In this document: piece after piece, positions 7,925 to 35,073 of the stretch
How positions within the stretch are numbered: position 1 is the stretch's first letter
Layout: every line of letters starts with the position of its first letter
DNA from: Geobacter sp. AOG2
Lineage (GTDB): Bacteria > Desulfobacterota > Desulfuromonadia > Geobacterales > Pseudopelobacteraceae
Assembly: GCF_019972295.1 (NCBI RefSeq)
Contig: NZ_BLJA01000001.1
Span: 156,049 to 220,048, forward strand
Direction of reading: 5' to 3'
Length of the DNA stretch: 64,000 nt
Made by a program: the position numbers and the translations under genes
The notes under the pieces: model-generated
The model's input: only the letters and a program-made list of their open reading frames with translations
Told to the model about the DNA's origin: nothing
Database searches by the model: none

Positions 7925-7954
7925 AAAAGGCCGGACAGAAAAGTCCGGCCTTTT
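7925..7954. terminator. Hairpin terminator, left copy of leuA-type terminator
   Basis: Perfect 12-bp stem AAAAGGCCGGAC / GTCCGGCCTTTT with a 6-nt loop, followed by TTTTGGGTGAAAA as at the leuA terminator (16180-16222). It belongs to the duplicated leuA 3' region at 7925-8092. Confidence 0.7.
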
Positions 7955-7974
7955 GGGTGAAAATAGGGCGGCGA

Positions 7975-8092
7975 TTACGGGCCAGGCGGTCTCGCTGGGG
8001 CGTTTCCGTTTGTAGTCCAGCCGGTTGAGGGGATGGACGCAGGCCTTGGCCGAGGCCTCGATGATATCGGTGGAGGAGTTCTTGTCCGCCAC
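7975..8092 (-). pseudogene. Decayed duplicate of the leuA 3' end
   Basis: Translated on the minus strand, this stretch reads SSTDIIEASAKACVHPLNRL, then DYKRKRPSETA, against SSTDIIEASAKAYVHALNRL, then NYKQKRLNET, at the end of the intact leuA (16238-17803). DNA similarity (about 80 percent by eye) continues through the stop region into the same GC-rich terminator. It is only about 40 codons long, has no leuA sequence upstream of it and ends abruptly near 8092. This looks like a fragment left by duplication or by insertion of foreign DNA at a leuA 3' end. It is not expected to make a protein. Confidence 0.8.
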
Positions 8093-8164
8093 GGGGGCTA
8101 CGGGATCAGGTTCGACATATAAGTATTCTCGACGGCCCCCTCCCGTGAAACCGTTTTTGGGTTT

Positions 8165-8370
8165 GTGGACAGATGTGTGTTGTGGGTGCGGCGCTTGCGC
8201 GGGAGGGTGTGGGTCAATATGATACAAATCAGAGCTTCCGAAGAGGATTCGGGGGCTTTTTTTGTGTGATGTCGGGGGGTTGAGGATAAGACGGCTGAAA
8301 TGGTCTTTTTATGTTAATTTTTTTAACATTTCGGGGAGAGTGTTAATTATTTTAACATATTGATTTTGCG
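8165..8370 (+). repeat. About 205-bp inverted repeat, left copy
   Basis: Nearly the same sequence (roughly 88 percent by eye) occurs inverted at 33974-34178. It contains a terminator-like hairpin (cttccgaagaggattcggg then a T-run), the run 'tgtgatgtcggggggttg', and two 17-bp palindromes. Both copies end just upstream of AT-rich defence-type genes, so it is probably a mobile or duplicated promoter module. Confidence 0.85.
8312..8357. promoter_or_regulatory. Paired palindromic operators TGTTAA-N5-TTAACA
   Basis: Two palindromes, TGTTAATTTTTTTAACA (8312-8328) and TGTTAATTATTTTAACA (8341-8357), start 29 bp apart, just under three helical turns. Both have identical TGTTAA/TTAACA arms. They sit 90-135 bp before the DUF2726 gene and are matched exactly by the pair at 33987-34032. 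A dimeric helix-turn-helix repressor is the likely reader; no candidate regulator gene is adjacent. Confidence 0.65.
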
Positions 8371-8447
8371 ATTGAATTTTATGGGAGCGGAGAGTAGAAG
8401 GGTATGAGTTTCTTAATGTAATGCATTTCCTTCAACAGGATCATGGA

Positions 8448-9341
8448 ATGGCGAAAAAGGAGAGCTTTCTTGAAACGCTGATCAAAGCGCCCTGGTGGGT
8501 AAGCGCAATCCTGTTGGTGGCGGGAAACGTCATAATCCGTATTGCCGTTCCCGCATGGTACTCGGGAGCGAGAACGCCGGGGCTCTTAGGCCCGGCGATT
8601 CAAAGTGCGGCGCCCACTGTCGCCAACCTGTTTTCGCTGGCGATGGTTGCCATATTGCTCTTCTCGTTAATCAGAGAAAAATTCCCCCAGAGAGAAACAA
8701 CCCCAAAAAACGAATTACCCTATAAAAGCAGAGAAGTCCTTTTTACCCCCGCCGAATTGAATTTCCTGAATACCCTGGAACCATCACTCAAAGAAGATTT
8801 CAAAGTCTACGGCATGGTGCGCTTGTGCGACATCATTGAGACAAAGAACAATCTGGACAAAAGCACGCAACAGAGAGCTTTCAACAAGATCAGAGCCAAG
8901 CATGTGGACTTCGTGATCTGCAATGCGCGGAGCCTTGCCATTGAGATGGTGATAGAGCTTGACGACCGTAGCCACGAGCGAAGGGATCGGATCGACCGGG
9001 ATGATTTTCTGGATGCAGCGCTGGAGGCCGCACATGTTCCGTTCGTCAGGTTTGCGGCCAAGCGGGCGTATACCCTGCGAGAGCTTCAAGCCAAGTTGGG
9101 CGGTTTTGTCGTAGCGGCGCAAGAGCCGGTTGCGGGTAAGGCTATGGAGGTTGCAGAGCCTGAGCCGGTGATAGCCAAACCGGCACCGGCGAATGATGGT
9201 GAGAGTTGCGCTACGTGTGGCAGCGACATGAAGCTAAGAGAGAAGAAATCCGGTGAGGAAGCGGGGAAGAAGTTTTGGGTGTGTACCCGGTACCCTGAAT
9301 GTCGGGGTGTGGTGCCGTATGTTGAGGCGAAGTGGTTTTAG
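8448..9341 (+). CDS. Membrane-anchored DUF2726 protein with C4 zinc finger
   Basis: A 297-residue protein. Two N-terminal membrane segments (about residues 13-36 and 55-72) are followed by a DUF2726 domain (about 90-215), a restriction-endonuclease-like fold. The conserved acidic VIELDDRSHERRD and RDDFLDAAL blocks are visible. After an Ala/Pro linker comes a topoisomerase-type zinc finger (CATCGS ... CTRYPECRG). ATG 8448 is chosen over ATG 8421 because AGGA lies seven bases before it. DUF2726 proteins often sit in defence or mobile regions, and the nuclease role is inferred. The paired operators lie just upstream. Confidence 0.7.
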   Translation: MAKKESFLETLIKAPWWVSAILLVAGNVIIRIAVPAWYSGARTPGLLGPAIQSAAPTVANLFSLAMVAILLFSLIREKFPQRETTPKNELPYKSREVLFTPAELNFLNTLEPSLKEDFKVYGMVRLCDIIETKNNLDKSTQQRAFNKIRAKHVDFVICNARSLAIEMVIELDDRSHERRDRIDRDDFLDAALEAAHVPFVRFAAKRAYTLRELQAKLGGFVVAAQEPVAGKAMEVAEPEPVIAKPAPANDGESCATCGSDMKLREKKSGEEAGKKFWVCTRYPECRGVVPYVEAKWF

Positions 9342-9492: not shown

Positions 9493-10185
9493 ATGAAAAA
9501 AGATCAAGTTTTAGAAATTCTTCAATCTAATGGGTTTATTCTCGATGAAGAGAAGCCCCTTCAATATGGTGCCCAGCTGAAATTCTCAAATGGCTCGGTC
9601 GTGAATGTATTTGATAAAGGCACAATTACTCCTCAAGGCAAAGATATTGAACTTGTAAAGAAGCTCTTGGGCCTGGCACCTGGAGGTAATAATGTGGTGG
9701 CGCCGGTTGCGGTAATAAAGCCCGCGAGTAAAAACAAGGTATTTGTTGTTTACGGACATGACGAACAAGCGAGAACAAGGCTTGATGCAATGTTGCGCCG
9801 ATGGGGGCTTGAACCGCTAATTCTCGATCAATTGCCATCTGAAGGTCAGACTATCATTGAGAAGCTTGTGAAGTATGCTGGTGAGGCAAGCTTTGGCGTG
9901 GTTCTGGCTACTCCAGACGATGTAGGCTATCGTGCGAGTCATCCCGACGAAAAGGCGTACCGTGCTCGTCAAAATGTCGTGCTTGAATTGGGCATGCTGC
10001 TTTCCCGGCTCGGCCGTTCACATGTTGCCATTCTTTTAGGGCAGCAAGAAAATATGGAGCGACCTTCGGATATTCAGGGTCTTATCTACATACCTTTTAA
10101 AGATAACCTTGAGAAAGACGCCGGACTACTCCTAGCAAAGGAAATGGCGGCGGCAGGATATCAAATTGATGTTGCTAAAGTGTAG
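9493..10185 (+). CDS. TIR-like (CAP12/Pycsar-type, PF10137) nucleotide-binding protein
   Basis: A 230-residue protein. The C-terminal domain (about 80-225) matches the 'predicted nucleotide-binding, TIR-like' family later recognised as the TIR effector of CBASS and Pycsar systems. Visible blocks are KVFVVYGHDEQAR, then SFGVVLATPDD, then ARQNVVLELGML with the expected catalytic Glu165 of an NAD glycohydrolase. The first 65 residues form a small separate domain containing KPLQYGAQLKFSNG, which I cannot name. No cyclase gene is next to it, so it may be a solitary effector that senses by its own N-terminal domain. About 150 bp separates it from the NACHT gene. Confidence 0.8.
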   Translation: MKKDQVLEILQSNGFILDEEKPLQYGAQLKFSNGSVVNVFDKGTITPQGKDIELVKKLLGLAPGGNNVVAPVAVIKPASKNKVFVVYGHDEQARTRLDAMLRRWGLEPLILDQLPSEGQTIIEKLVKYAGEASFGVVLATPDDVGYRASHPDEKAYRARQNVVLELGMLLSRLGRSHVAILLGQQENMERPSDIQGLIYIPFKDNLEKDAGLLLAKEMAAAGYQIDVAKV

Positions 10186-10339: not shown

Positions 10340-12991
10340 ATGACAGTAACCGAAACAGAACAAAAGCTATTGGTAAAAATACAATCTCTAAATGAAAATG
10401 ATTTTACAAGAGATGTTTTAATGCCGCTGTATAGAAGTTCCGGATATGAAAAAGTTGATTTCTATGGCGGACCTTATGAAAACGGTAAAGATTTAATATG
10501 CTGGAGGAGAGATTCATGGGAGGATGTAGAATTAGTTGTTGTACAGGCAAAGTGCTACGAGCCATCTGGAAGGGCATCGGACGACAAAAGTTTTATTGAA
10601 ATTGTTAGGCAAATATTACAGGCTGCAGAAACCCCGATCCCACACCTAGACGGCAATCAATACAAGCCAATATCTATTGAAATAGTTACACCATTTGTGG
10701 TTGATACTAGGGCTCTTGAAACTGCTTTTTACACTCAAACTGCTATTAGGAATTATAAAATAAAAGTGGTCGACGGAATATACGTTATAAAAAATTTAAG
10801 GAAACATATTCCAAAACTTGTCATGAAATTAATAGGTAGTGGACCGATGGTCAACGACATAATGACAAGGTCCTTAAATAATATTGATTTAAGGAATGCG
10901 TTAAACGTGTACCAGTTAAAAGAGTTGGATGATGTCTATTGCGACCTTGATTTTACGGTTGGGAATATTACTACTAAACTTTTGTTATCTTTTAAATTGA
11001 AGCCAAGTAATATTGTAGTAACCTACACAGAAGAAAGATGGCAACATTTTAAATGTTTTTGTGAAGAACTAAAACACGAAATGGGTATTGATATTTTAGT
11101 TGAAAAAATTAAAGATATTGAAAAAAGATATAACAGAGATATTTTGGCTATAAATAAAGCTGTAACAAAAGTTAATAAACTTAAAAATGCTTTAGATGAA
11201 ATAGGTGTTAGTAATGTGATAAATTCAATTACAGATCTAGTTGCTGACGAAGAAAATGATTGCATACAATCAATAGCATATAGAATGAAGGAGATAACAT
11301 CTAATTATTATCGAATTGGTTCAAAAAATCTTGATGATTATATAGAGTATACTAATCAAATAGATGATGAAATATATGAACTAAAAAAAATAACAAAAAA
11401 GATAGTGGGCACCAAGCTTTTAAATTATCTTGCTTTCTACGATAAAACTTTGAAAAAATCAAAAAAAATAGAGAATGAATTATCTGATATGCAAAGAAAA
11501 GTAAATGATGTTAGGTATATTGCGACTATTAATGGACCAAGCCTATGCAGTGCCATTGCAGACAACCAGAAACACCTGAAAGAAGAAGTATCGAATTTAT
11601 TGAAAAATGAGAGAACGCCATCCAAGGTATTAGAATTTATTACAAAATGCGAATTAATATTAAAAAATACTGAAAAGTTATTAAATTACGAATATTTATC
11701 AGAAGCCGCGGGATTATCGTCTGATATGCGGTTCGTAAGTATTGACAAACTAGATAGGATAAATTTTTCTGTTCATGAAATTTTTGACTCAGGACAGGAT
11801 TTTGTCATATTTGGAGAAGCTGGTGCGGGTAAGACTACGACACTACAGTCCTATGCCAGAAAAACAATTGAAACCAGTAGGAAAGAAGTGGTTTTTTATA
11901 TACCATTAGCAAGGTCATTCTATAGATTAGAGATCATAAATCCCACTGAATTTAATTATGTTGAATTTCTATATAAAGCAATTATTAAACATTTAATGTC
12001 ACAAGAAATAGTAATTGATATCACTACTATTAGAGATATAGCAGACAATAAATCTACTTTATTTATTTTTGACGGAATAGATGAAATAATTGATAAAATA
12101 CCTTGGATAATTAATGCAATTATATCATTCAAACAACAAAATCCTAAAATACAAATATTAACATCATCAAGATTAAGTGGAAATTATATAAATAATATCC
12201 CATTTGTTGGGCTAACCTTGTTGCCATTTGATGATGAGCAACGTGAGGCATTTTTTCGATCATGGTTTAATGATCCTCAAAAACTACAGGCTGTAGTAAA
12301 TCACTTACATAATACACCTGATTTGAACGATATCGTTAGAAACCCACTTCTTGCTACTATTTTATGTGTTATAGCAGAATATGATATACCTTTACCTGAA
12401 TCAGAAATTAGACTGTATGAAGAGAGAATGAGTTTATTGCTTGGTTCATACGATAAAGAAAAGCTCAGCAACCGATTGAAGTCACATTATCGAGACCTTA
12501 TTAAAGTTGCGTCAAAAATTGCCTTTATATTGCACCGCAAAGAGGCACGATATTCAGGCAAAGATGAAATAGTTGAAAAAATGTGCGATTTCTACCAATC
12601 TTCAATTGCACCAGATAAGATTGCGCTTGCTGTAAATGAGCTGATTGATCCTTGTAATATCCTGATGCCTATGACGGATGATGGCCAATATGGCTTTGGC
12701 CATCTGAGATTTCAAGAGTATTTAGTCGCATGTGAATTGAAAGAGAACAGATCTATAAAATTGCTGGATTATTTGGATAAAACTTTTTGGAGAGGAGCAT
12801 TTATTTTGTTGTCGAAAATGAGTGATGACATACATCATTTAGTTGATGAGCTTGTGAATAGGGGGGCGCTTGCTCGTTATACTGAGACCATTGAATTAAT
12901 GCTGAAAGCCAGACCACAAAGTGAACAGGCATCTTTAATGGAGCTTGTACAAATGAACACAGGGTTGGATCATCGTGGATCAAGCCTGTAA
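10340..12991 (+). CDS. Mrr-like nuclease fused to NACHT NTPase (bNACHT-type defence protein)
   Basis: An 883-residue STAND protein. Residues 1-170 form a PD-(D/E)xK Mrr-like domain with GPYENGKDL (Asp51) and VVVQAKCY (QxK at 69-71). Residues about 240-470 are a long, helical, coiled-coil-rich linker. NACHT follows, with Walker A GEAGAGKTT near 492-500 and Walker B LFIFDGIDEI near 573-582. The C-terminal winged-helix region contains GHLRFQEYLVACEL. Short bacterial NACHT proteins with nuclease effectors are anti-phage sensors that cut DNA on activation. It lacks the long repeat sensor of Avs proteins. It is strongly AT-rich compared with neighbours, which indicates transfer. GGAG lies before ATG 10340 and a terminator follows at 13136. 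Confidence 0.88.
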   Translation: MTVTETEQKLLVKIQSLNENDFTRDVLMPLYRSSGYEKVDFYGGPYENGKDLICWRRDSWEDVELVVVQAKCYEPSGRASDDKSFIEIVRQILQAAETPIPHLDGNQYKPISIEIVTPFVVDTRALETAFYTQTAIRNYKIKVVDGIYVIKNLRKHIPKLVMKLIGSGPMVNDIMTRSLNNIDLRNALNVYQLKELDDVYCDLDFTVGNITTKLLLSFKLKPSNIVVTYTEERWQHFKCFCEELKHEMGIDILVEKIKDIEKRYNRDILAINKAVTKVNKLKNALDEIGVSNVINSITDLVADEENDCIQSIAYRMKEITSNYYRIGSKNLDDYIEYTNQIDDEIYELKKITKKIVGTKLLNYLAFYDKTLKKSKKIENELSDMQRKVNDVRYIATINGPSLCSAIADNQKHLKEEVSNLLKNERTPSKVLEFITKCELILKNTEKLLNYEYLSEAAGLSSDMRFVSIDKLDRINFSVHEIFDSGQDFVIFGEAGAGKTTTLQSYARKTIETSRKEVVFYIPLARSFYRLEIINPTEFNYVEFLYKAIIKHLMSQEIVIDITTIRDIADNKSTLFIFDGIDEIIDKIPWIINAIISFKQQNPKIQILTSSRLSGNYINNIPFVGLTLLPFDDEQREAFFRSWFNDPQKLQAVVNHLHNTPDLNDIVRNPLLATILCVIAEYDIPLPESEIRLYEERMSLLLGSYDKEKLSNRLKSHYRDLIKVASKIAFILHRKEARYSGKDEIVEKMCDFYQSSIAPDKIALAVNELIDPCNILMPMTDDGQYGFGHLRFQEYLVACELKENRSIKLLDYLDKTFWRGAFILLSKMSDDIHHLVDELVNRGALARYTETIELMLKARPQSEQASLMELVQMNTGLDHRGSSL

Positions 12992-13669: not shown

Positions 13670-13689
13670 GGCTGAAAATCCCCCCTGGT

Positions 13690-16062: not shown

Positions 16063-16135
16063 ATTATCGAGGGGGCACAAACTTGCTGATATGCTTTTAA
16101 GGTGGCTCGCTCGGAGGCATGTTCGACATTTAAAC

Positions 16136-16236
16136 ATCCCCAACCCCTCCACCCCACAACCGGACCCTTCAAACGACCGAAGGCCGGGCGCAACTGCCGC
16201 CCGGCCTTTTGGGTGAAAACAGGCTGGCGATTATGG
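16136..16236. repeat. leuA downstream region, reference copy of the direct repeat
   Basis: Contains the leuA terminator hairpin AAGGCCGGGCG-N7-CGCCCGGCCTT (16180-16208). Nearly identical to 13690-13790 and, from the hairpin rightward, similar to 7925-7970. Confidence 0.85.
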
Positions 16237-16237
16237 G

Positions 16238-17803
16238 TCAGACGGTTTCGTTGAGACGTTTCTGTTTGTAGTTCAGCCGGTTGAGGGCGTGGACGTAGGC
16301 CTTGGCCGAGGCCTCGATGATGTCGGTGGAGGAGCCCTTGCCCACCACGATATTGTTCCCTTCGGCCACGCGGACCGTGACCTCGCCCTGGGCGTCGGTG
16401 CCGCCGGTGATGGAGCCCACATTGTATTGCACCAGCTTGGCCTTGGTCTTGGTCAGCTTCTTGATGGCCTTGAGGGCGGCGTCCACCGGTCCGTCGCCCA
16501 GCTCGGCGGTGCGCACCGGCTCGCCGTCGATCTCCAGCTGCACCGTGGCGGTGGCCACGGCGAAGGAACCGCAGGTGACGGTGATGTGGCCCAGCTTGTA
16601 CTTCACGTCGTCGCGGGATTCGTCCACCACGATGGCGTCCAGGTCTTCGTCGAAGACCTCCTTCTTCAGGTCGGCCAGGGTCTTGAAGCGCTCAAAGGCG
16701 CGGTTCAGCTTGTCGTCGTCCAGGTCGTGGCCCAACTGCTCCAGGCGCTGCTTGAAGGCGTGGCGGCCGGAGTGTTTGCCCAGCACCAGGGCGCTGGCGG
16801 ACAGCCCCACCGATTCCGGGGTCATGATCTCGTAGGTGGATTTGTCCATCATCATGCCGTGCTGGTGGATGCCCGCCTCGTGGGCAAAGGCGTTGGCCCC
16901 CACGATCGCCTTGTTGGGCTGGACCGCGATGCCGGTGATGTTGGTCAGCAGGCGGCTGGCCGGGGTGAGCTGGTCGGTGGCCACATTGGTGGTGAAGGGG
17001 AGGATGTCGTGGCGCGTGCGCAGGGCCATGACGAATTCCTCCAGGGAACAGTTGCCCGCCCGCTCGCCGATGCCGTTGATGGTGCACTCCACCTGGCGCG
17101 CCCCGGCCTGCACGGCGGCGATGGAGTTAGCCACCGACAGCCCCAGGTCGTTGTGGCAGTGGACCGAGATGATGGCCTTTTCGATGTTCCGCACATTCTC
17201 CTTCAGATAGGAGATGATGTTGAAATACTCGAAGGGGATGGTGTAGCCCACCGTATCCGGGATATTCACCGTGGTGGCCCCGGCGTCGATCACCGCCTCC
17301 ACCACTTCGGCCAGGAACGGCAGCCGGGTCCGCACCGCGTCCTCGCAGGAGAACTCCACGTTGGGGGTATAGGAGGCCGCGCGCTTCACCGCCTTGACGG
17401 CCGACGCCAGCACCTTGGCCGGCTCCATCTTCAGCTTGTACTGCATGTGGATGTCGGAGGTGGCGATGAAGGTATGGATGCGTCCTTTCTCCCCGGCGTA
17501 TTTCAGCGCGTCCCAGGCCCGGTCGATATCCTTTTCGCTGGAGCGGCACAGACCGGCGATCTGGGGTCCCTTGATCTGCTGGGCCACCAGCCTGACCGCC
17601 TCGAAATCGCCGTCGGAAGCAATGGGGAAGCCGGCTTCGATCACGTCCACGTTCATCTTCTGGAGCTGTTTGGCCACCCGCAGTTTTTCTTCGATATTCA
17701 TGCTGTTGCCGGGGGCCTGTTCGCCGTCCCGCAGCGTGGTGTCAAAAATCCTGATGAGTTGCCGGTCGTCCTGCTTCTGTTTTTTCGTCGGTGCCTTTGC
17801 CAT
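16238..17803 (-). CDS. leuA: 2-isopropylmalate synthase
   Basis: A 521-residue enzyme of leucine synthesis: condenses acetyl-CoA with 2-oxoisovalerate. The N-terminal HMGL-like TIM barrel has the DTTLRDGEQAPG motif (residues about 21-32), the metal and substrate histidines in SVHCHNDLG, and NGIGERAGN. The C-terminal LeuA regulatory dimer domain (about 380-515) gives leucine feedback inhibition and ends in the GKGSSTDIIEASAKAYVHALNRL block. It is preceded by a leucine-type T-box leader. Length and motifs fit LeuA better than citramalate synthase. Confidence 0.95.
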   Translation of the reverse strand: MAKAPTKKQKQDDRQLIRIFDTTLRDGEQAPGNSMNIEEKLRVAKQLQKMNVDVIEAGFPIASDGDFEAVRLVAQQIKGPQIAGLCRSSEKDIDRAWDALKYAGEKGRIHTFIATSDIHMQYKLKMEPAKVLASAVKAVKRAASYTPNVEFSCEDAVRTRLPFLAEVVEAVIDAGATTVNIPDTVGYTIPFEYFNIISYLKENVRNIEKAIISVHCHNDLGLSVANSIAAVQAGARQVECTINGIGERAGNCSLEEFVMALRTRHDILPFTTNVATDQLTPASRLLTNITGIAVQPNKAIVGANAFAHEAGIHQHGMMMDKSTYEIMTPESVGLSASALVLGKHSGRHAFKQRLEQLGHDLDDDKLNRAFERFKTLADLKKEVFDEDLDAIVVDESRDDVKYKLGHITVTCGSFAVATATVQLEIDGEPVRTAELGDGPVDAALKAIKKLTKTKAKLVQYNVGSITGGTDAQGEVTVRVAEGNNIVVGKGSSTDIIEASAKAYVHALNRLNYKQKRLNETV

Positions 17804-25555: not shown

Positions 25556-26458
25556 TCAGGTACCCCCTGTGTTGGCGGCGGCCCGGTAAAAGTCGGATTT
25601 ATCGAGTGTTACCGGTGTGACCGGCATCCCGTAGAAATCGGAGGCTTGGGCACGTATCTTTGCGCCCAGATTCGTTAAGATCGCGACCGTGGTATCGCGG
25701 GCGTCACTGACAAGCGAATCGCCGGTATGACAGAAGAAATCGTCGAGCGAGTAACGGGCGAGCTGCTTTCCGACCCCCAGGCCGCGGAATTTTGGTTCGA
25801 CCGCAAACCTCCCCCAGTGCCATTGCCCCTGTTCGTTCCAGCACGCGACGACACCGACAACATACTCGCCGGCGCGAGCACACCACCATTGCACGGGATA
25901 TTCACGGGGAATAGGTATGAGATCTTCGGGAATACCCTGTTCCTTCGAGAAAACATCGGCCATAAACGCAATAGCTTCATCGCGATATGTCGGTTGCATC
26001 CTCTCAAGCGTCAGGCGCATTCCGCTTTCGACAAAATTTCGCCTGAACGCCTTCATGCGCAGCAGGCGCAACCCGTCCAGAATGATCCCAATCTCGTGCC
26101 CGTCGAGTCCATCCAATAGTGCCGAAACCTCACGGTCGGCGGCATGATTTGCCTTCGCAAGCATGTCTCTGCCGTGCGGAAGAAGAGAAAGCTGTTTTTG
26201 CCGTTTGTCGGCAGGGCTTTTGATCATGGCGAGATACTCTTTTGCCTCCAGAGCGTTAAGCGCCCTGCTTAACGACGCCTTTTCGATATTCAGCTGTTTG
26301 CACAATTCGAAAAAAGATGTGGCGCCGTTGCGCTCCAGGTAGGTCAATATATGCGCCTGCAACAAGGACAGGTTCGACTGCCAGCAATTTTTGCCAAGCA
26401 AACCCAACTCCCTGACTAAAAAACGCAATTCGCTTCTGATGTTGGATATCTGGGACAT
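25556..26458 (-). CDS. MarR-GNAT fusion protein
   Basis: A 300-residue bifunctional protein. The N-terminal MarR winged helix (about 5-135: LLQAHILTYLERNG, then KQLNIEKASLSRALNALEAKEYLA, then DKRQKQLSLLPHG) is joined to a GNAT acetyltransferase (about 150-290, with VEPKFRGLGVGKQLARYSL). Such fusions are known as self-contained regulators, and the acetyl target is unknown. ATG 26458 or 26476 could be the start. A perfect 19-bp palindrome lies 20 bp upstream and is the likely autoregulatory operator. Confidence 0.88.
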   Translation of the reverse strand: MSQISNIRSELRFLVRELGLLGKNCWQSNLSLLQAHILTYLERNGATSFFELCKQLNIEKASLSRALNALEAKEYLAMIKSPADKRQKQLSLLPHGRDMLAKANHAADREVSALLDGLDGHEIGIILDGLRLLRMKAFRRNFVESGMRLTLERMQPTYRDEAIAFMADVFSKEQGIPEDLIPIPREYPVQWWCARAGEYVVGVVACWNEQGQWHWGRFAVEPKFRGLGVGKQLARYSLDDFFCHTGDSLVSDARDTTVAILTNLGAKIRAQASDFYGMPVTPVTLDKSDFYRAAANTGGT

Positions 26459-26477
26459 TTCGTTACCCCGCCGCATA

Positions 26478-26496
26478 TTGTTGATAGTATCAACAA
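26478..26496. promoter_or_regulatory. Palindromic operator, probable MarR binding site
   Basis: TTGTTGATAGTATCAACAA, a perfect 9-bp inverted repeat around one central base, immediately upstream of the MarR-GNAT start. Size and AT-rich arms are typical of MarR dimer sites. Confidence 0.7.
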
Positions 26497-27174: not shown

Positions 27175-28227
27175 CTAGATTTTCTCTTTTTGTGTAGGAT
27201 GTAGACTTGACCCTCGCTTATTTCCTTTCTTAAATCTCTCAATCCATGAATTAGATAATAAAAAAAGCATTGGATTTGTAAACTGATCCAATAATAGATT
27301 CATTTCTGGAAAATAACCTCTTCTACGCGCGCTATCAACAGCAACAGTCAACAATAAATTTCTATAAGAATCTGGAATATTGTTTGTTTCTACCACTTGT
27401 TTGAACTCAGAAATACTTAAATATTTTTTTGATAAAATAATAAATTTATCCAGCAATATTTTAAAAATAATATCGAATTCATTTTTACTAATTGATAAAT
27501 TATCAGAGTTTTCAATATTTGATTTTTTAATTGAAGCTTTTAATTCAATACAATCCTTTTCATATATGTGGAGACTATCACTAATTTGATAATAACCGCC
27601 TAATTTTAAATCAAGCCACCCTGCAAGTATTTCCTGTAGCATCGTAAATTGAACGATATTGTATGGGGTTCCTCTGTAAAGATCGTTGCTGCGCATCACC
27701 TGCGTCCATTCCAACTTACCCTCTCTGATCTTCAACATTGAAAACAAGTTACACGGTATATCTAACGAAACAGGAACACCGTCTTCATTTGGCAAATCTG
27801 ATTTGGCATCCCAAATCTGGATCACGACTTGCCTGCTGGTAGGATTCTTTTTTAAGGCATGATAAGCACGTTCAAGCTGGTTAACGCCAAAGTGGTTTAT
27901 TATTCTATATCCGTATGCTCCGTGGTATTTTTCGAAGTTTCCCACAAATTTGGGCAACGCAGGATTCCAAAAATTTATAAAGCTAGCATCGTTGCTGCCT
28001 GACAATATCCAAAACACTTCAGCAATTGCAAAGGCGGGGTTCATCGCAGGCAATCTTGAGGTAACCCATCGTTGTCTTGGATTCTCTATGTACAAGTTTG
28101 CATGAAGAATTTCACGCATTGCTCCCAAACGGCTTTGCTCAAAAGAACTCAGTTCGTCACTTTGCAATGTGCTGATTGCCTGACGCCAAACGTCATCAGC
28201 AGTTTTTCCAGAAAAGGCCCTTATCAT
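27175..28227 (-). CDS. Thymidylate-synthase-like protein (nucleotide modification type)
   Basis: A 350-residue ThyA-superfamily protein. The catalytic Cys is present in LDIPCNLFS (Cys159), followed by the phosphate/dUMP block QVMRSNDLYRGTPYNIVQF and a SLHIYEKD segment. The N-terminal Arg/loop region is divergent and a 100-residue AT-rich C-terminal extension follows, unlike housekeeping ThyA. Relatives in phages and modification operons methylate or hydroxymethylate pyrimidine nucleotides. ATGA overlap with the upstream helical-protein gene indicates translational coupling. It is last in the seven-gene operon. Exact product unknown. Confidence 0.82.
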   Translation of the reverse strand: MIRAFSGKTADDVWRQAISTLQSDELSSFEQSRLGAMREILHANLYIENPRQRWVTSRLPAMNPAFAIAEVFWILSGSNDASFINFWNPALPKFVGNFEKYHGAYGYRIINHFGVNQLERAYHALKKNPTSRQVVIQIWDAKSDLPNEDGVPVSLDIPCNLFSMLKIREGKLEWTQVMRSNDLYRGTPYNIVQFTMLQEILAGWLDLKLGGYYQISDSLHIYEKDCIELKASIKKSNIENSDNLSISKNEFDIIFKILLDKFIILSKKYLSISEFKQVVETNNIPDSYRNLLLTVAVDSARRRGYFPEMNLLLDQFTNPMLFLLSNSWIERFKKGNKRGSSLHPTQKEKI

Positions 28228-29312
28228 GGGGTTGTGCCTAGTCCTATCTTATGGTTTAAGCCCCACTTCGGTGGATACCAATAGTCAATAGATTTTGCTA
28301 TCGGAGTGAATTTTTGCTTAATCCTCAAGCGACCCGTTATTCCTGCAATTTCTGGGTGCTTTACTCGCGCATACTTGTCAACCTCGCAAAATATATTCTG
28401 GCAGTCAATCAACTGCAAGGGTCGCCCCCAAAGCGATTTGAATGATAGCCCAAGTTGTTCAAATTCGATATCCTGCCTTTCCGTCACCATCCTAATAATA
28501 TCTGACTCATCAAGCCCTCCCAGATCGCTGAAACACTTGCGAATGCCGTCACGCGCGCCAGGCCCTGGCATGACAAACTCCATCTCGCTAAAATTCAGTA
28601 AAGGACTGTAATTTAAATCAGTAACGAACTGATAGGCAAGGAAATCTCCAATAGAAGGATAAGAACGCAACAATGCGAACGCTTTTGCCATAGACTGTAC
28701 ATCCGACAACTTGGCATAAAGTATGTCTGCCATCATTTGCTCGAGCAACTTGAGATGCATTCGATGCTTTTTTGAGTATGGTGATTTGGGGCCGCCTGAT
28801 GGCATGATGTAAGCTGCCGAATATATTCTTGAGCCACTTTCGATGATTTTTGTCAGGACAGCGTCATAACGATCAAAAGAATACTCAGCAAAGGATACAG
28901 CCCCAAACGCATGAGTAAGCCGCTCCCACGTTTCAATTTTGTTAAAGAACTTGAAAAGCATGGTCCGAAAGAAAACTTCGGGAGCACTTTGATCGCCTGA
29001 GTATATGACGTTTTTTATAAGATACTGGCTTACGCGATCAGAAGCGCGGTAACAATTGGTAAATTTGTGTACCCGCAAAATTGGGTCAGAGGTCCAAGGA
29101 GGAAGTGAGTTTTTCATTCGTGCAAAAAAAATTTCCTGCCTCTCAGCGGCAAAGCGCCAATAACTTTCGTAGACGACAGTTGCCCTTGCTGGCAATAACT
29201 TACTGATGATTTCAATTTTTGGTGGCGGGATGGCTACATGCGGGTCAAGGCTCAGTTGATATTGTTCAGGTGAACGTTTCCTAATCACGGTTTTCCTTTG
29301 CGAAGTTTTCAT
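28224..29312 (-). CDS. aGPT-PPlase / 5-hmdU DNA kinase-associated helical domain protein
   Basis: A 362-residue all-helical protein, distantly like DNA glycosylases. It matches the family described with hypermodified thymine systems (alpha-glutamyl/putrescinyl-thymine pyrophosphorylase clades, HMUDK helical domain). Recognised blocks: FTNCYRASDRVSQYLIKNVI, PEVFFRTMLFKFFNKIETWE, SYPSIGDFLAYQFVTDLNYS, FVMPGPGARDGI and LIDCQNIFCEVDKYAR. In phages such proteins act on modified thymine in DNA. The start may instead be GTG 29288, which has AAAGGA before it; ATG 29312 overlaps the kinase gene by 32 bp. It is coupled to the downstream ThyA-like gene. Confidence 0.78.
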   Translation of the reverse strand: MKTSQRKTVIRKRSPEQYQLSLDPHVAIPPPKIEIISKLLPARATVVYESYWRFAAERQEIFFARMKNSLPPWTSDPILRVHKFTNCYRASDRVSQYLIKNVIYSGDQSAPEVFFRTMLFKFFNKIETWERLTHAFGAVSFAEYSFDRYDAVLTKIIESGSRIYSAAYIMPSGGPKSPYSKKHRMHLKLLEQMMADILYAKLSDVQSMAKAFALLRSYPSIGDFLAYQFVTDLNYSPLLNFSEMEFVMPGPGARDGIRKCFSDLGGLDESDIIRMVTERQDIEFEQLGLSFKSLWGRPLQLIDCQNIFCEVDKYARVKHPEIAGITGRLRIKQKFTPIAKSIDYWYPPKWGLNHKIGLGTTP

Positions 29313-29901
29313 ATACTTCGATTATTTGTGCTAATGTGTCCTGAGGTAATAATTCGTTTGTTATGATCTCAACTTTTGAGTGGTTACGCTCATGCGCAAC
29401 AACCTTTTCGTATGCGTCTAATAATTGGTCCCAGTGTTTGACCTCTGAGGGCTTCAAGCTATTTTGACGCTTTAAATAAAAAATACATACTGGCTGAAAT
29501 TCGGCCCAGTGCAATTTTTCGATTTCGATTAGTTTTTTGAGTGAGTCGAAATTAGCTCCAAATAGACTACCATAAACAATCGTTGACCACCAGAACCTAT
29601 CCAGTACAATTGAATTGCCGGCACGTAATGAGGGTAAAATCTCTGACTCAATTGCATCTATATGGGCTGCAACATGGAGCATCTGCAAACTTGTTGCATT
29701 TATGGTGTTGATATCACCATCATAAATTTTGTGATGAATTTCATTGACGTGCTTGCCGAGTGTGCCTGACCTGCTGCCAGGGAAAGAAAAGTAGCTGCAT
29801 TTTTTACCTGTTGAATTTAGATGGGCAGAAAACTGCTTGGAAAAAGTTGTTTTTCCCGTGCCATCCGGCCCTTCAAAAACAAATAAATCGCCACTGAGCA
29901 T
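29281..29901 (-). CDS. Thymidylate-kinase-like P-loop kinase
   Basis: A 206-residue P-loop kinase. Walker A is GPDGTGKTTFSKQF near the N-terminus. A DRFWWSTIVYG block replaces the DRY/FxxS substrate region of TMP kinase, and no classical LID arginine cluster is obvious. It presumably phosphorylates a modified pyrimidine monophosphate or DNA base. ATG 29901 gives the usual TMPK N-terminus, while a GTG at 29916 is possible. It overlaps the start of the next gene. Confidence 0.8.
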   Translation of the reverse strand: MLSGDLFVFEGPDGTGKTTFSKQFSAHLNSTGKKCSYFSFPGSRSGTLGKHVNEIHHKIYDGDINTINATSLQMLHVAAHIDAIESEILPSLRAGNSIVLDRFWWSTIVYGSLFGANFDSLKKLIEIEKLHWAEFQPVCIFYLKRQNSLKPSEVKHWDQLLDAYEKVVAHERNHSKVEIITNELLPQDTLAQIIEVYENFAKENRD

Positions 29902-29919
29902 GTCCAAAATGTTCACCTA

Positions 29920-30594
29920 CTATTTAATTTTAGCAAATAGAAACTTTAAAATAATGGCACTCAATATTGCTAACAGAGAACCACCCACACTGTATATTAT
30001 AGTAATATAATGTTCTAATTTTATGTATTTTTTTTCGTATTCATGCCGGAGATCATCGATTTCTTTTTTAAGTGCATTGGGTGAAGCAATTTGGCCTCGT
30101 AACATATTTACATCGTCTGCTGTAATGTGACGTTGGTCCTTATGGACTCCATTGTATTCATCAGAATTACCATTATCCATATCTGCGAACCAAATTGGGA
30201 AAGCGGCTTGACCTCTTTCTAGAACAATTGGTTTCGGGCCTGCGTTGTACACAGCAAATTTTAGCCGTCCCGTAAAGCCAGGATCCACATGGAATCCTGA
30301 AACATTAACTAATCCGCGAAATTTAATGGCAGCACGAATTGATATAAATCCTATCGAATTTTTAGGAATTGTTACGGTCTCTTCAGTCAATATTATTGCG
30401 AATTGACCAGGCTCGATACTAATTTGACCGTAATTACTGTTCATAACAGTTTTTACTTCATTTACTGTTATAAATGACTCAGGGCCAACACTCAATAGGT
30501 ATTGGCCATTACTTATTCTGGTATTATCAAATGGCAGTACTAAATAGTCTGAAACTTGTCTGATTCTTATAGTATCAGTACCCCAAAAAGCCAT
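29920..30594 (-). CDS. dCTP deaminase/dUTPase-fold protein with C-terminal membrane anchor
   Basis: A 224-residue protein. Residues about 10-140 follow the trimeric dCTP deaminase/dUTPase fold: IGFISIRAAIKFRGLVNVSG, then the hallmark HVDPGFTG (102-109). The Glu that follows in deaminases (a LE(F/L) motif) is replaced here by LKFAVYN, so deaminase activity is doubtful. A helix (about 170-195, KKEIDDLRHEYEKKY) leads to one membrane segment (about 196-220) and a basic tail. A soluble nucleotide enzyme fold hung from the membrane is unusual. It may sense or hydrolyse a modified nucleotide. It sits between Nmad2 and the kinase. Confidence 0.78.
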   Translation of the reverse strand: MAFWGTDTIRIRQVSDYLVLPFDNTRISNGQYLLSVGPESFITVNEVKTVMNSNYGQISIEPGQFAIILTEETVTIPKNSIGFISIRAAIKFRGLVNVSGFHVDPGFTGRLKFAVYNAGPKPIVLERGQAAFPIWFADMDNGNSDEYNGVHKDQRHITADDVNMLRGQIASPNALKKEIDDLRHEYEKKYIKLEHYITIIYSVGGSLLAILSAIILKFLFAKIK

Positions 30595-30619
30595 ATATCA
30601 GAACACTCCATTAGTTTTA

Positions 30620-31267
30620 TCAAATGATTTTACTGGTTGATTGATCAACTCTTTTTGCTGCTTTTAAAAAGTTAAACGGGAAAGCGATAACCCGATTCCT
30701 ATCTTTGGAATAGCGCTGCTCTATATCATCGATAAAGGCAACTATGTTATTATCACTAAGTTGCATTTTTTGGTAATTTCTTCCGTTTTGGTATTCTATC
30801 AATTCTAATTTTACCGTCGGGGCATCCTCACCAAAGTAATAAAAAAAATCTGAAATCAATACATTATCCGAGAAGGTGTCGATTCTAACATTGTCATGAT
30901 TTAGTGAGCCGTCAGGATTGCTATGCTGTGAATCCTCTTGTTTCCAAGATTCATCTCCTTCTTCTTTATGATATATATTGTCACCAACCATCATCACTAA
31001 GCTGCCGTTTCTCTGAGGCTTTTTCCTTTGAAAACGTGAGTCAAACCAATAATCATTAAAGCTCAGTATTTCAGTAACCTTCATAAGATAAATGCATCTA
31101 CCAACTGCGTTCAGTCGGTCGCCACCAACTCCAACGATCCAATCTCCAAGTTGTGCGCTTTTCCTTATCCTGGCTTTACAAGTTGCAAGAGTGCAATACC
31201 CGTGAAATGGATTTGGAGCAAACCCAAAATCTCTATCAACAACATAGATGTATAAATAATTCATCAT
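30620..31267 (-). CDS. Nmad2 (nucleotide modification associated domain 2) protein
   Basis: About 215 residues. The N-terminus YVVDRDFGFAPNPFHGYCTL, then ATCKARIRKSAQLGDWIVGVGG, matches the Nmad2 domain defined by comparative genomics in predicted base-modification operons. Its biochemical role is unknown and it may bind or process modified nucleotides. ATG 31267 is preferred over GTG 31279, whose ribosome site would touch the codon. The gene sits directly after the ThsB-like gene's stop (31270). Confidence 0.82.
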   Translation of the reverse strand: MMNYLYIYVVDRDFGFAPNPFHGYCTLATCKARIRKSAQLGDWIVGVGGDRLNAVGRCIYLMKVTEILSFNDYWFDSRFQRKKPQRNGSLVMMVGDNIYHKEEGDESWKQEDSQHSNPDGSLNHDNVRIDTFSDNVLISDFFYYFGEDAPTVKLELIEYQNGRNYQKMQLSDNNIVAFIDDIEQRYSKDRNRVIAFPFNFLKAAKRVDQSTSKII

Positions 31268-31269
31268 GT

Positions 31270-31758
31270 TTATGCGCACCTCACGTGAGCGCCGTCCTTT
31301 CTCGGGCTTGGGCTGCCGTCTGGGTTTTGAAAAGAAGTAATACCATTAATTGCATCAATAATTGACTTGGGGTTCCATTCAACTATTGATGTCCCAAGGG
31401 CAGACAATGCTTCGGGAATATCAGGTTTGTCTTTAAGTCCTTGTTCATAAACTCCAACTATGTTTTTGCCCTGCTTAACGGCTTCAGTAATCTCCCAATT
31501 GACCCATTTTCTTTCATGAGTCTCCTTTCCAATGAGAACTATCACTGTGCCCGCCCACGACATTTTCATCCTGAGTAGTCTCCTGATGGTTGAATCTTCT
31601 ACAAGCCCCTTATCTAATCGTTCTTGATTTGCTGGTTTAGCACGAATGGAGCTATTTCGAATGTTGCATCCATTATTAGCAAGCAAATCAGTTAAACTAT
31701 CAACATGCTTATCGTCTTTGTGATGATGGCTAATAAATACATTTCTTGTCTGATTCAT
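31270..31758 (-). CDS. ThsB-like TIR domain protein
   Basis: A 162-residue protein formed almost wholly of a TIR-like domain (DUF1863/ThsB class): NVFISHHHKDDKHVDSLTDLL, then TVIVLIGKETHERKWVNWEI with candidate catalytic Glu89, then NIVGVYEQG. In Thoeris, ThsB proteins detect phage and make an NAD-derived cyclic nucleotide that activates ThsA through its SLOG domain. A SLOG-bearing protein is encoded 46 bp upstream. This supports a Thoeris-like pair. Confidence 0.82.
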   Translation of the reverse strand: MNQTRNVFISHHHKDDKHVDSLTDLLANNGCNIRNSSIRAKPANQERLDKGLVEDSTIRRLLRMKMSWAGTVIVLIGKETHERKWVNWEITEAVKQGKNIVGVYEQGLKDKPDIPEALSALGTSIVEWNPKSIIDAINGITSFQNPDGSPSPRKDGAHVRCA

Positions 31759-31804: not shown

Positions 31805-33826
31805 TTAAAGAGATAAGTTTTTTAGACCCTGCATAATCAAATGAATACATTCATCGACAAAGGGTGTTTCCATCAATCGCAAATAGGTTAATTCATCAAG
31901 CCCAGAATTTTTCGATAGAGTGGGGATGGCGATTCCCTCAAGGGCCGTCTTCACCTGTCTGTAATCCGCGTGCATACCATATTTTGATGCGATTGTTTGG
32001 ACATCAACGTATCCGGCGTTGTGGCTGTTCTGCCATGCTTCTGTAAGTGAGTCTGGATATGGCGCTTTGCGTAGCACTTTGCAAACATCGCCCACGACAC
32101 CACCAAAAGCGCCCAGCAGGTAAATGGGCTTGCTCTTGTCAATAGCGATAAGGATTTCTTCTAAAACCCCCGGCATTTTCCCGCTGTATCCCGAAAGCTT
32201 TCCACCTGCACAAATACGAGCATGGGAGGAGTCTATAGATAACACTCTCATCTCTGTGAGACATCGCGACCAGATATATTTATTTTGAGGCGTGGACGGT
32301 GGCAGGAAATTATCCTTATCGATATCGTTGGCAATATCATCCGGAATGTCGTATTCAACAGTATCCATGACTGCCTTATAATTTGCGCGCCACGCGGTCA
32401 TTTCTTTGTCAGCTTTGTGGATTGGCCACGACAAGTGGTTCTCTACATGGATGACGTCGGTGTTTAGGCGGTTTTTTAATGCAATAGCTTCGTCAAGGAT
32501 AAACTCTGTAAAACCGTTCTTACGCAAGTCTCCTCCATAAATCAAAGTTGCTGATCTGGCAAGCAGGTGCCGAGCAAGGTCTTGAGCAAGTCTTATAGAT
32601 TGATTTAATGGAAGATGATTTTCCTGGAATCCATCACTTGGAACTTCTGATATGGAAATGCCTACTCTCAAACCATTTAAAGAGTGATCTTCAGAGCTAC
32701 TCCATAGAGGAGTAAACGTGTCAATTTCAAGCTGGTGATGCCAATCTGCCTCCTCAGAGTAAATAGGAGGTTCTGGATAGCAGATTTTCGTAAACGTACC
32801 TTCTGCTTTCAACGCAAGGATTTGACGAATTTCCGGAGGGCGAGAAAAGATTGCACAATCGTCACCAATCCACCCACGTACTTGATAGTGCTCAAGCGAT
32901 TTCAGAGCATGGCAATGACGAATAGTTTCCAAAATTGCAGTGGTAAGAACCTTTAGAGTTTCTGGTTCACTAAGCGGCGGCTTAGGCGATATATGTACGC
33001 ATGGCACATTTGAACCTGCTGGAAAGATTCTGTCTTCATAATTTTCCAAACAGTTAACAGCAATCATTGGCCGGTGATACTTTTTTGCACACAAAATTTC
33101 CCGTTGGCACCAATATCGTGAAGAGTAGTCATCGCTACAAATTGCCACCATTGTTGAGTCTTCAATGTGTTTGATTATCTCTTCATTGAACTTAAATCCA
33201 GGGGAAATTGTTGTTGCATCAAAGAAGTGCGACATGTTTGTGTTTTCAATAAACCGCTTGATCGTCTCCGCATGAAGGCGGCCAGTGTTCCCACTTTTGG
33301 CGTGGCTAAGAAATATATTTATGGAAGACGATTTGCCCTTGTCACCTTCTCCAATTTCAACAAACCCGTGACGGTAAATTTCATGTGCCATGGTAAGTAT
33401 CGTATTTTGAACCACAGACTCGTAATGCCATTCGTATGCGCGAATGAAATTAATATCCTTAAGGCATCCCTCTCCGCCGTGCCCGAGCCCTTCGCGAGTT
33501 AACGCTACGGGAACAACTCGCATTGTCTCATTACATGGAAGATTGCTTATATAGCTGTCCCACGAAGCACGTCCTCTCGTGTTTACGCTTGTAAATACAA
33601 ATAATATATTCCGTGTTGCGAGTTCCTGTGGGTTGTTGTTTGGTACAATAATCGGATTATTGGAGCTATAAAAAAAGATGGGGATATTCAAGTTACGGGA
33701 AAATGGTCGATTAATATCTCTAGAAAGGTATTTTGAGACTGCTTTGAGGATTGGATCAATAACATCGTTGTCCGACGGGTGCCAAATGAAGTGAATCGCA
33801 AGGGGAGGACTATATTGTGAAGGCAT
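31805..33826 (-). CDS. TIR-TIR-SLOG protein, ThsA-like effector candidate
   Basis: A 673-residue protein. Domain order: a divergent TIR-like domain (about 8-150), a typical TIR (about 166-290: INIFLSHAKSGNTGRLHAETI, then TMVAICSDDYSSRYWCQREI with Glu243), a linker, and a SLOG domain (about 385-620: LRVGISISEVPSDGF, then LIYGGDLRKNGFTEF, then GGVVGDVCKVL). In Thoeris ThsA the SLOG domain binds the ThsB-made signal and switches on an NADase. Here TIR would replace SIR2 as the NADase. ATG 33826 is chosen for its GGAGAGG site; the frame continues to 33886. It is first gene of the operon. Confidence 0.78.
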   Translation of the reverse strand: MPSQYSPPLAIHFIWHPSDNDVIDPILKAVSKYLSRDINRPFSRNLNIPIFFYSSNNPIIVPNNNPQELATRNILFVFTSVNTRGRASWDSYISNLPCNETMRVVPVALTREGLGHGGEGCLKDINFIRAYEWHYESVVQNTILTMAHEIYRHGFVEIGEGDKGKSSSINIFLSHAKSGNTGRLHAETIKRFIENTNMSHFFDATTISPGFKFNEEIIKHIEDSTMVAICSDDYSSRYWCQREILCAKKYHRPMIAVNCLENYEDRIFPAGSNVPCVHISPKPPLSEPETLKVLTTAILETIRHCHALKSLEHYQVRGWIGDDCAIFSRPPEIRQILALKAEGTFTKICYPEPPIYSEEADWHHQLEIDTFTPLWSSSEDHSLNGLRVGISISEVPSDGFQENHLPLNQSIRLAQDLARHLLARSATLIYGGDLRKNGFTEFILDEAIALKNRLNTDVIHVENHLSWPIHKADKEMTAWRANYKAVMDTVEYDIPDDIANDIDKDNFLPPSTPQNKYIWSRCLTEMRVLSIDSSHARICAGGKLSGYSGKMPGVLEEILIAIDKSKPIYLLGAFGGVVGDVCKVLRKAPYPDSLTEAWQNSHNAGYVDVQTIASKYGMHADYRQVKTALEGIAIPTLSKNSGLDELTYLRLMETPFVDECIHLIMQGLKNLSL

Positions 33827-33973
33827 TATAGCCACCTCTCCATCATGAGAGCGGCTTCCGAGGGCATGCCTAATGGAATGAAACATCGCAGGTCTGCCAT
33901 TTGCAACCTCGCTCTTATAAAGACACCTTAATAAAATCGATTCAATTGTACACCCACAAGCACAGGTTTCAAC

Positions 33974-34178
33974 AACAAAATCAATATGTTAAAATAATTA
34001 ACACTCCCCCGAAAATGTTAAAAAAATTAACATAAAAAGACCATTTCAGCCCTCTTGCCCCCAACCCCCCGACATCACACAAAAAAAGCCCCCGAATCCC
34101 ATTCGGAAGCCCGCCTTTGTATCATATTGACCCACACCCTCCCACACAAGCGCCGCACCCAAAACACCATCTGTCCAC
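33974..34178 (-). repeat. About 205-bp inverted repeat, right copy
   Basis: Reverse complement of 8165-8370 with a few substitutions. It holds the same hairpin (cccgaatcccattcgg) and both palindromes, and lies directly upstream of the TIR-TIR-SLOG gene. Confidence 0.85.
33987..34032. promoter_or_regulatory. Paired palindromic operators before the seven-gene operon
   Basis: TGTTAAAATAATTAACA (33987-34003) and TGTTAAAAAAATTAACA (34016-34032), the same two 17-bp palindromes and 29-bp spacing as at 8312-8357. They lie 160-205 bp before the TIR-TIR-SLOG start and are likely to control the whole operon. Confidence 0.65.
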
Positions 34179-34310
34179 GAAAGACACGAAAAACACGAAC
34201 GCGAACGAACCACGAGGATGAACGAAAAAATCGACCGTTCACACGAAAAGGTTAGCCGCTTTTGTCCATAATCGTCAGGCCTTGTTCGTGTCTTTCGTGC
34301 TTTTCGTGGA
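34174..34310. repeat. Inverted 'cacgaaa' repeat
   Basis: Left arm TCCACGAAAGACACGAA (from 34174) and right arm TTCGTGTCTTTCGTG to TCGTGGA (34285-34310) are inverted copies. A related copy lies at 35114-35145. Dispersed intergenic repeat with no coding content. Confidence 0.7.
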
Positions 34311-34402: not shown

Positions 34403-34780
34403 TTACGCTGCCATTCTCTGATTTTTTGCAGCGGGGCTTTGAACAAGCCGGGGGATGGCGTCAAGCAGCTCCAGAATAGCGGGGCGGACACGTTCCATGT
34501 CGTAGGACGCCTGCAACGATGTCCAGAAATCCGGCGTCGTGCCGAAGAACCGCGCCAGACGCAAGGCGGTATCCGCCGTTATGCCCCGTTTGTGGTGCAC
34601 GATTTCGTTGATCCTGCGGGGAGGCACCCCGATAGTCACCGCCAGCCGGTGCTGGGTCACCCCCAACGGCTCCATGAAGTCATGCTGCAACACCTCTCCC
34701 GGATGAACAGGGGCGAGTTTCGTCCCGTCCGATACATCCGAATAATCCATTTTTTCCAAATCTTCGCGCTTGATTGTCAT
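34403..34780 (-). CDS. higA: HigA-type antitoxin (XRE family)
   Basis: A 125-residue antitoxin with the HigA pattern VHPGEVLQHDFMEPLGVTQ, RRINEIVHHKRGITADTALR and FFGTTPDFWTSLQ. The HTH binds the operon promoter and the protein neutralises HigB. ATG 34780 follows AGGAG; the upstream frame to 34858 is not needed. It lies 11 bp after higB, the usual toxin-first order of higBA. Confidence 0.9.
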   Translation of the reverse strand: MTIKREDLEKMDYSDVSDGTKLAPVHPGEVLQHDFMEPLGVTQHRLAVTIGVPPRRINEIVHHKRGITADTALRLARFFGTTPDFWTSLQASYDMERVRPAILELLDAIPRLVQSPAAKNQRMAA

Positions 34781-34791
34781 TACGGCTGCTC

Positions 34792-35073
34792 CTAGTGATA
34801 ATCCACGATTTCCACGTCTTCGGCGCTCCCATCCTCCCAGCGAAAGCAGATACGCCATTGGTCATTGATCCTGATGCTCCATAATCCTTTTCTGTCGCCC
34901 TTCAACGTCTCCAGCCGATTGCCGGGAGGGATGCGCAGGTCGTCGACCATCCGGGCGGCGTCCAACTGCTTGAGCTTGCGACGCGCCGTTTGCTGCATGT
35001 CGAGCGGCAAGCGACGAACGGCAAGGCCGGTAAATATGGCGGCTGTCTCTTTGGATGCGAAACTGCGGATCAT
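34792..35073 (-). CDS. higB: HigB/RelE-family toxin
   Basis: A 93-residue mRNA interferase of the RelE/HigB plasmid-killer type: MQQTARRKLKQLDAA, then LRIPPGNRLETLKGDRKGLW, then SIRINDQWRICFRW. It appears intact, with the basic and aromatic residues of the family. It pairs with higA just downstream. Confidence 0.9.
   Translation of the reverse strand: MIRSFASKETAAIFTGLAVRRLPLDMQQTARRKLKQLDAARMVDDLRIPPGNRLETLKGDRKGLWSIRINDQWRICFRWEDGSAEDVEIVDYH

Follow-up and report, generated by a model that had tools for sequence, protein, structure and literature searches.

A putative insulated promoter module of the genus Oryzomonas and the exchange of genes behind it

It is still an open matter how a host gains control over defence genes that it has newly acquired. 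In the 64,000-bp stretch of Geobacter sp. AOG2 DNA analyzed here (the window; contig NZ_BLJA01000001.1, positions 156,049 to 220,048), two gene sets with defence-type content are preceded by inverted copies of one sequence of about 215 bp, and one can ask what such a shared upstream sequence does. The two copies, referred to below as modules A and B, are 90-92% identical by blastn (8162-8376 and 33968-34181); over 200 nt, the arm 8177-8376 shows 91% complementarity to the arm 33968-34167. The inverted repeat that the sequence-only reading had placed in front of the two loci was therefore confirmed, with slightly longer arms, and so was its description of each copy as a hairpin plus two palindromes with identical spacing. 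Exact TGTTAA-N5-TTAACA matches begin at four positions (8312, 8341, 33987 and 34016), 29 bp apart within each pair, and the hairpin is terminator-like. With up to two mismatches, the palindrome occurs seven times in the window against 0.99 occurrences expected, a number reached in none of 100 shuffles. The promoter-like sequence of module B falls outside the interval in which the module was first described (-35 at 33972-33967, -10 at 33950-33945). The coordinates of all features are collected in Table 1.

Table 1. Modules A and B, the genes behind them (cargo) and neighboring repeats, in window positions.
Feature	Position	Strand	Basis
leuA 3' end duplicate, left of module A block	7945..8093		87% to 16201-16349 (149-bp copies)
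Module A, architecture as module B, before DUF2726 gene	8162..8406	+	alignment
Module A terminator-like hairpin and T run	8232..8264	+	by eye, from sequence and alignment
Module A distal palindrome	8312..8328		exact match
Module A proximal palindrome	8341..8357		exact match
Module A promoter-like TTGAAT-N17-TAGAAG	8372..8400	+	sequence scan
Cargo A: DUF2726 protein (PF10881)	8448..9341	+	domain scan
Cargo A: CAP12/Pycsar-type TIR protein, PADLOC PDC-S35	9493..10185	+	domain scan, PADLOC
Cargo A: NACHT protein, weak Mrr-like N terminus, no PADLOC match	10340..12991	+	domain scan, PADLOC
leuA 3' end, right side of module A block	16201..16349		sequence comparison
Cargo B: Nmad2, dCTP-deaminase-like, thymidylate-kinase-like, 5-hmdU kinase, thymidylate-synthase-like genes	27175..31279	-	domain scan
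Cargo B: ThsB-type TIR protein	31270..31758	-	domain scan
Cargo B: TIR + SLOG (LD_cluster2) protein	31805..33886	-	domain scan
Module B: terminator, twin palindromes and sigma-70-like promoter, before seven-gene operon	33938..34181	-	alignment, terminator/promoter scan
Module B promoter-like TTGAAA-N16-TACAAT, 10/12	33945..33972	-	sequence scan
Module B proximal palindrome TGTTAA-N5-TTAACA, centre near -58	33987..34003		exact match
Module B distal palindrome, centre near -87	34016..34032		exact match
Module B terminator-like hairpin, then T run, on operon strand	34086..34112	-	sequence scan
Module B conserved distal motif TGGGTCAATATGATACAAA	34116..34134	-	alignments

We searched the genome of the window (3,921,258 bp) for palindrome pairs 29 bp apart, a search to which the sequence-only reading had pointed. 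The twin pattern (12-base gap, up to three mismatches) retrieved 12 sites in both orientations, all with no or one mismatch, and the reversed-pattern control retrieved none; this is far beyond chance and indicates a family rather than a pair. With at most one mismatch, the twin pattern was present in 4 of 97 genomes (that of the window included), all of one genus. A 99-position sequence-only model matched in all six genomes of this genus and in none of 70 other genomes of the family at E 0.001. In a collection of 84,980 species, which was scanned for exact matches with a gap of 2-32 and may not include genomes closely related to that of the window, the 46-base twin span was found, among 42 stretches, on two contigs of Oryzomonas japonica Red96 only. 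Viral contigs yielded 10 stretches with spans of 40-63 bases, none of them with the 46-base twin span, and module B as a query had no match in plasmid and phage collections. The module family is thus confined, in the collections searched, to one Geobacteraceae genus, Oryzomonas (e.g., O. japonica Red96).

Along the operon strand, the members of the family typically consist of a GTCAAWATGATACAA motif, a hairpin with a T run, a short stretch that is conserved and one that varies, the palindromes and the predicted promoter; in the family alignments, the second palindrome is followed by TATTGATTTTGC or similar, TTGAAA or similar, and TAGAAG or a relative. Across 21 aligned copies, 99 core columns are gap-free, the TTG of the -35 element is invariant, and the outer bases, only one of which deviates among 84, extend each palindrome to a 19-bp RTGTTAA-N5-TTAACAY. 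The best promoter match falls in the same column in 29 of 30 high-scoring copies, 28 of the 30 having a spacer of 16-18 bp, and the palindrome centres lie near -58 and -87, counted from the -10 element. The half-sites and their spacing are conserved, as had been claimed. The flanks do not simply vary, as had also been claimed, since the hairpin region, the GTCAAWATGATACAA motif further upstream and the TATTGATTTTGC-like spacer are kept as well in most of the 21 copies.

Chosen score limits divided 62 modules into 45 with twin palindromes, 13 with a single palindrome and 4 unclear ones; matches in L120 and one doubled match were excluded, and the 45 twin modules were drawn from fetched matches (among those unfetched are G002:C25:144692, G005:C2:473545 and G001:C24:75400). 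Centre-to-centre spacing in the 45 model-found modules is 29 bp in 35, 28 bp in five and 30 bp in three, and a clear distal site is missing in two, figures to be read with the model's own leaning to a spacing of 29 and the leaning of model-found copies towards the model. The spacing in the 21 aligned copies results from their selection, since they were found with a fixed-spacing pattern. Among the nine exact pairs of the window genome with sites no more than 60 bp apart, eight are spaced by 29 bp and one by 30 bp. A terminator-like site on the operon strand is present in 34 of the 45 twin modules, versus a mean of 3.3 in 10 base shuffles; 11 modules are without a terminator by the criterion used, and in 14 an opposite-strand terminator was scored. 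In the second class, the single palindrome lies 1 bp nearer the -35 element behind similar upstream sequence, twice in tandem (L082, L084), so that a proximal site near -57/-58 is present in both classes; a terminator was scored in 9 of these 17 copies, single and unclear ones together. When the module was folded as a consensus RNA, a single palindrome emerged, without covariation, and the hairpin was not recovered.

At least one cargo protein was scanned at 30 of the 45 twin modules, gene calls being mechanical ORFs, and eight proteins were scanned by PADLOC. Clear defence families follow 7 of these 30 modules (window 8308 and 33938, L015, L091, L093, L101 and L102:13612). Further cargo in the window genome comprises GmrSD-type, glycosyltransferase, LVIVD, glutaredoxin-like, MCP and hemerythrin proteins, an AAA protein that is OLD-like by reading and a small protein with a weak CarboxypepD_reg match that reads as a lipoprotein; three cargo sets had no domain match. 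In the relatives, the cargo includes HSDR_N-like, HNH + HATPase, SIR2 with NB-ARC, ORC-CDC6-like, NERD-UvrD and DUF4145 proteins, an AAA and subtilase pair named IetA/IetS by PADLOC and a DUF4011 helicase (PADLOC PDC-S37/Hhe). Porin-like, DUF5677, Ig-like, SH3 and PQQ-type proteins, and several without a match, also occur there, and single-palindrome modules are followed by caspase, SIR2, XRE-type and, here too, porin-like proteins. Since chemoreceptor, porin-like and hemerythrin genes follow some modules, the module is not a defence-only switch. Appearance of the element at many unrelated genes, which was to count against a shared promoter, is therefore seen in part; the promoter-like layout is nevertheless kept. 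We also note that the 5-hmdU DNA kinase family gene of cargo B (28224-29312, minus strand) is present, among the six genomes of the genus, in that of the window only.

Base composition changes at the modules. GC content over 1.5 kb is at or below 0.48, a limit set after the GC data had been seen, downstream of 17 of the 45 modules and upstream of none, and it is lower downstream than upstream in 37 of 45 (Wilcoxon p 3e-7, a rough value, the modules being related). In the window genome, such low GC is found downstream of 5 of 14 modules, versus 2.1% of the windows of a hand-picked 400-kb background sample (binomial p 7e-6). This sample consists of 20 stretches chosen by hand at roughly even steps and having no known site, so that missing palindromes there are not independent evidence. 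It contains four AT-rich segments without a palindrome, from which it follows that foreign genes do not need the module.

Comparison of loci between species (positions counted from the end of the 99-column core) revealed where the sequences part. At locus B, G003 and G005 are 90.7% identical from -5570 to -25, then carry 5.5 and 2.5 kb of different DNA, and then are alike again; the window genome has the flank in common with them (89%) and carries about 15.7 kb at this place (window 18.26-33.93 kb), with leuA and an ABC operon at the borders. At locus C, identity of 92.7% runs from -916, the start of the fetched G002 stretch, to +24, beyond which the cargo differs. At locus F, identity of 97.5% runs from -2310 to -8, and the module is followed by a DUF2726 gene in G005 and not in G002. 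Loci B, C and F thus have in common that species match in flank and module but not in the genes behind them, with the break at the promoter-like sequence. Loci A and G are weaker cases, with matching flanks and position and only module-level identity across the module. Such exchange is not general, since GC content exceeds 0.48 behind 28 of the 45 modules and the gene behind the module of locus H is alike in three species.

Changes on both sides of the module are seen at E5, where G002 and G005 share only the module (-192 to +3, 92.9%); G002 has about 0.88 kb extra upstream and 3.97 kb with a SIR2-STAND gene downstream, and G005 continues straight to the next gene. At locus D, module and IetAS together fill about 4.4 kb in G002, whereas in G003 only 90 bp separate the same flanks; the left break is about 15 bp outside the module, and module and IetAS are present or absent as a unit. 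G005 has a single leuA 3' end and lacks the block 8094-16200 of the window (module A, its cargo and an MCP gene). In the window genome, the leuA 3' end and downstream sequence is repeated (7945-8093, 13690-13793 and 16136-16349), as if two insertions had taken the same place. Insertion and loss look the same in these comparisons. The data contain both modes, cargo that changes while the module is retained and units that are gained or lost as a whole.

Does the module reside at its loci, or does it move? Modules that share a locus but differ in cargo rank among the most similar pairs (0.94 at F, 0.90 at E5 and 0.87 at C, against a median of 0.61 for all 990 pairs), from which it follows that the module mostly stays with its locus. 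The window pair is an exception, its members being more alike (0.82 over 225 columns) than those of any other non-orthologous pair (at most 0.80). In column identity, module B scores 0.74 against the same locus in both G003 and G005, and module A scores 0.80 and 0.75 against these; the corresponding alignments of module B are 75 and 78% identical versus 90-92% for the window pair, and conversion would leave a similar picture. Either one copy was duplicated or conversion occurred. The mobile promoter cassette that the sequence-only reading had offered as an option is supported in part, in that module A's block is missing in G005 and module and IetAS form a unit at locus D.

We consider it rather unlikely that module and cargo form a small mobile unit with the module as its left end, or that the module is a mobile promoter, spread through conversion or a trans-acting transposase, with palindromes that serve movement besides transcription. 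The unit at locus D, the block absent in G005, the bare module shared at E5 and the closeness of the window pair all speak for such mobility. So does the DUF2726 family, whose homology begins 22-28 bp behind the core at three loci while the upstream flanks are unmatched; of six DUF2726 matches in the genus, four lie within about 1 kb behind a module and two are without one. Genes for IS200-like Y1 transposases were observed in two of the scanned cargo sets, that of a twin module (L117:9156-9887, plus strand) and that of a single-class module (L084:12041-12979, plus strand). The module and flank are, however, kept at B, C and F while the cargo differs, and the highest pairwise identities follow the locus, not the cargo. 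Inspection by eye of the junctions at loci A, B, C, E5, F and G revealed no common right end, such as the attC-type site of integron cassettes would be, and around the window pair neither terminal inverted repeats nor a target duplication were noticed by eye. The sharing of just the module at E5 and the Y1 genes weigh slightly towards mobility and against the promoter reading preferred below. Far less probable is a REP/MITE-like repeat family devoid of a regulatory role. The copies are dispersed, numerous, found in both orientations and restricted to a genus, and two of them have Y1 transposase genes nearby; yet half-sites, spacing and -35 element are kept while spacers vary, as expected for binding sites and a promoter, the first promoter hexamer keeps its column and the 16-18 bp spacer in 28 of 30 high-scoring copies, and an Rfam scan of 7800-8600 returned one sub-threshold match, which lay outside the module.

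A more serious competitor, though one we consider less than even in probability, is an ordinary global regulon, in which a housekeeping regulator would have defence genes merely as some of its targets and the breakpoints at the promoter would reflect selection against insertions in the module or the genes. In keeping with this, there are stable targets such as locus H, and exact palindromes that are arranged differently lie near ilvC and near cyclophilin, alpha-amylase and cas3-like genes. The excess of AT-rich DNA behind twin modules and the different cargo behind the same module at several loci argue against it. On balance, we favor, as moderately probable on the sequence evidence, a genus-specific module that acts as an insulated and regulated promoter and receives imported genes behind it. 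In most copies, the terminator would cut off upstream transcription, and one dimeric transcription factor would bind the two 19-bp palindromes centred near -58 and -87 and control a sigma-70-type promoter whose -35 element lies 14 bp beyond them. Since the sites are upstream of the -35 element, activation or relief of silencing would be expected rather than blocking of the polymerase. At several loci, foreign genes would be exchanged behind a module that stays in place, or would come and go along with it, and by either route new cargo would be placed under the same control; selection may keep cargo in place.

The palindromes are most simply read as sites at which one DNA-binding factor acts on many separate loci. 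Exact single palindromes number 44 in the window genome and 0, 22, 29, 1 and 19 in G001-G005, versus at most one per genome in 19 genomes from other genera in the family. This count and the fixed place relative to the promoter-like sequence are consistent with the single regulator of separate loci proposed from the sequence, but the defence-specific coordination proposed with it does not fit MCP, hemerythrin, glutaredoxin-like, LVIVD and porin-like cargo. Elsewhere in the order, 10 and 8 exact palindromes were counted in two of the three genomes from a genus of another family, sometimes about 64 or 128 bp apart; since exact palindromes occur there, the regulator may predate the module. We found no regulator; genes for an XRE-type protein (L082) and a response-regulator receiver (L145, by reading) adjoin sites. 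In the window, a MarR-GNAT fusion gene (25556-26476, minus strand) is preceded, 3 bp ahead of its start, by TGTTGATAGTATCAACA at 26479-26495, which has the geometry of the module palindromes. Its product is a poor candidate for a genus-wide role, since the gene sits in the variable zone of locus B. The operator consensus of Rex is TTGTTAA-N4-TTAACAA. Rex was discarded, as the spacer here is 5 and the left outer base is A or G in 21 of 21 copies for both palindromes. The GlnR/TnrA box has the consensus TGTNA-N7-TNACA, which the palindrome fits by reading as TGTTA-N7-TAACA, a likeness that is weak on its own.

A bolder version of the preferred promoter-module reading, which we regard as doubtful, is an integron-like plug-in set without an integron, i.e., chromosome-wide insulated, co-regulated landing promoters, with the shared module allowing one-sided recombination of incoming or neighboring DNA. 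If this is true, defence and other foreign genes would be plugged behind a ready-made, jointly controlled promoter. The mobile promoters of Matus-Garcia, Nijveen and van Passel are reportedly similar promoter regions located before unrelated genes in one genome. Homologous predicted promoter regions before non-homologous genes in one genome are what we find; the module copies differ from mobile promoters in being mostly diverged, in carrying a terminator and a twin operator, and in staying at several loci while the cargo differs. Putative mobile promoters and promoter propagation are treated in PMC9208149. As with the BrxR-type WYL regulators of defence islands (PMC9122601), predicted operators in the form of inverted repeats precede defence genes; BrxR is encoded inside the island it controls, whereas the Oryzomonas module places one operator type at loci across the genome. 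No WYL regulator was found among the cargo and locus proteins scanned. The Gac/Rsm pathway of Pseudomonas governs a variable suite of defence genes (PMC11888443), as a regulator of the module would, but the link here is a DNA module at predicted promoters. Defence hotspots of E. coli (PMC10121019) and Pseudomonas (PMC12629846) resemble our loci in having variable cargo between conserved flanks and differ in that one flank here is itself a promoter module common to many loci. The HsdC system differs because HsdC, according to PMC5282649, recognizes direct repeats. A literature search, in which the Oryzomonas literature was judged by titles and abstract openings, found no description of the module.

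One short module thus precedes several unrelated defence-type systems, namely TIR/NACHT, SLOG-TIR with 5-hmdU genes, IetAS, SIR2-STAND, an Hhe-like helicase and the GmrSD type. At some loci, it marks the place of cargo exchange, and it can serve as a starting point for identifying the regulator and as a query with which to look for new accessory systems in the genus.

Several further occurrences were recorded. Intergenic palindrome pairs and triplets 55-78 or about 128 bp apart occur in L121, L122, L123, L129 and L141 and in L130-L132 and L136, another family of the order included. A motif like GTATCATWWTGWC recurs, by eye, near palindromes (L125, L129, L142 and L144) and at the distal end of the module. 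Exact palindromes lie upstream of cas3-like genes in L125 (5119, 5884) and L135 (5520), in two families of the order; these genes have Cas3-like C-terminal and DEAD matches, with Cas3_HD above the cut-off only in L125. A degenerate single-palindrome module in the window (22756-22820, plus strand; model match G000:178806-178859, E 3.2e-4) precedes an FG-GAP repeat gene with 207-bp tandem repeats (22932-24842). Directly upstream of module B lies an HTH + HigB-like toxin-antitoxin pair (34403-35073, minus strand).
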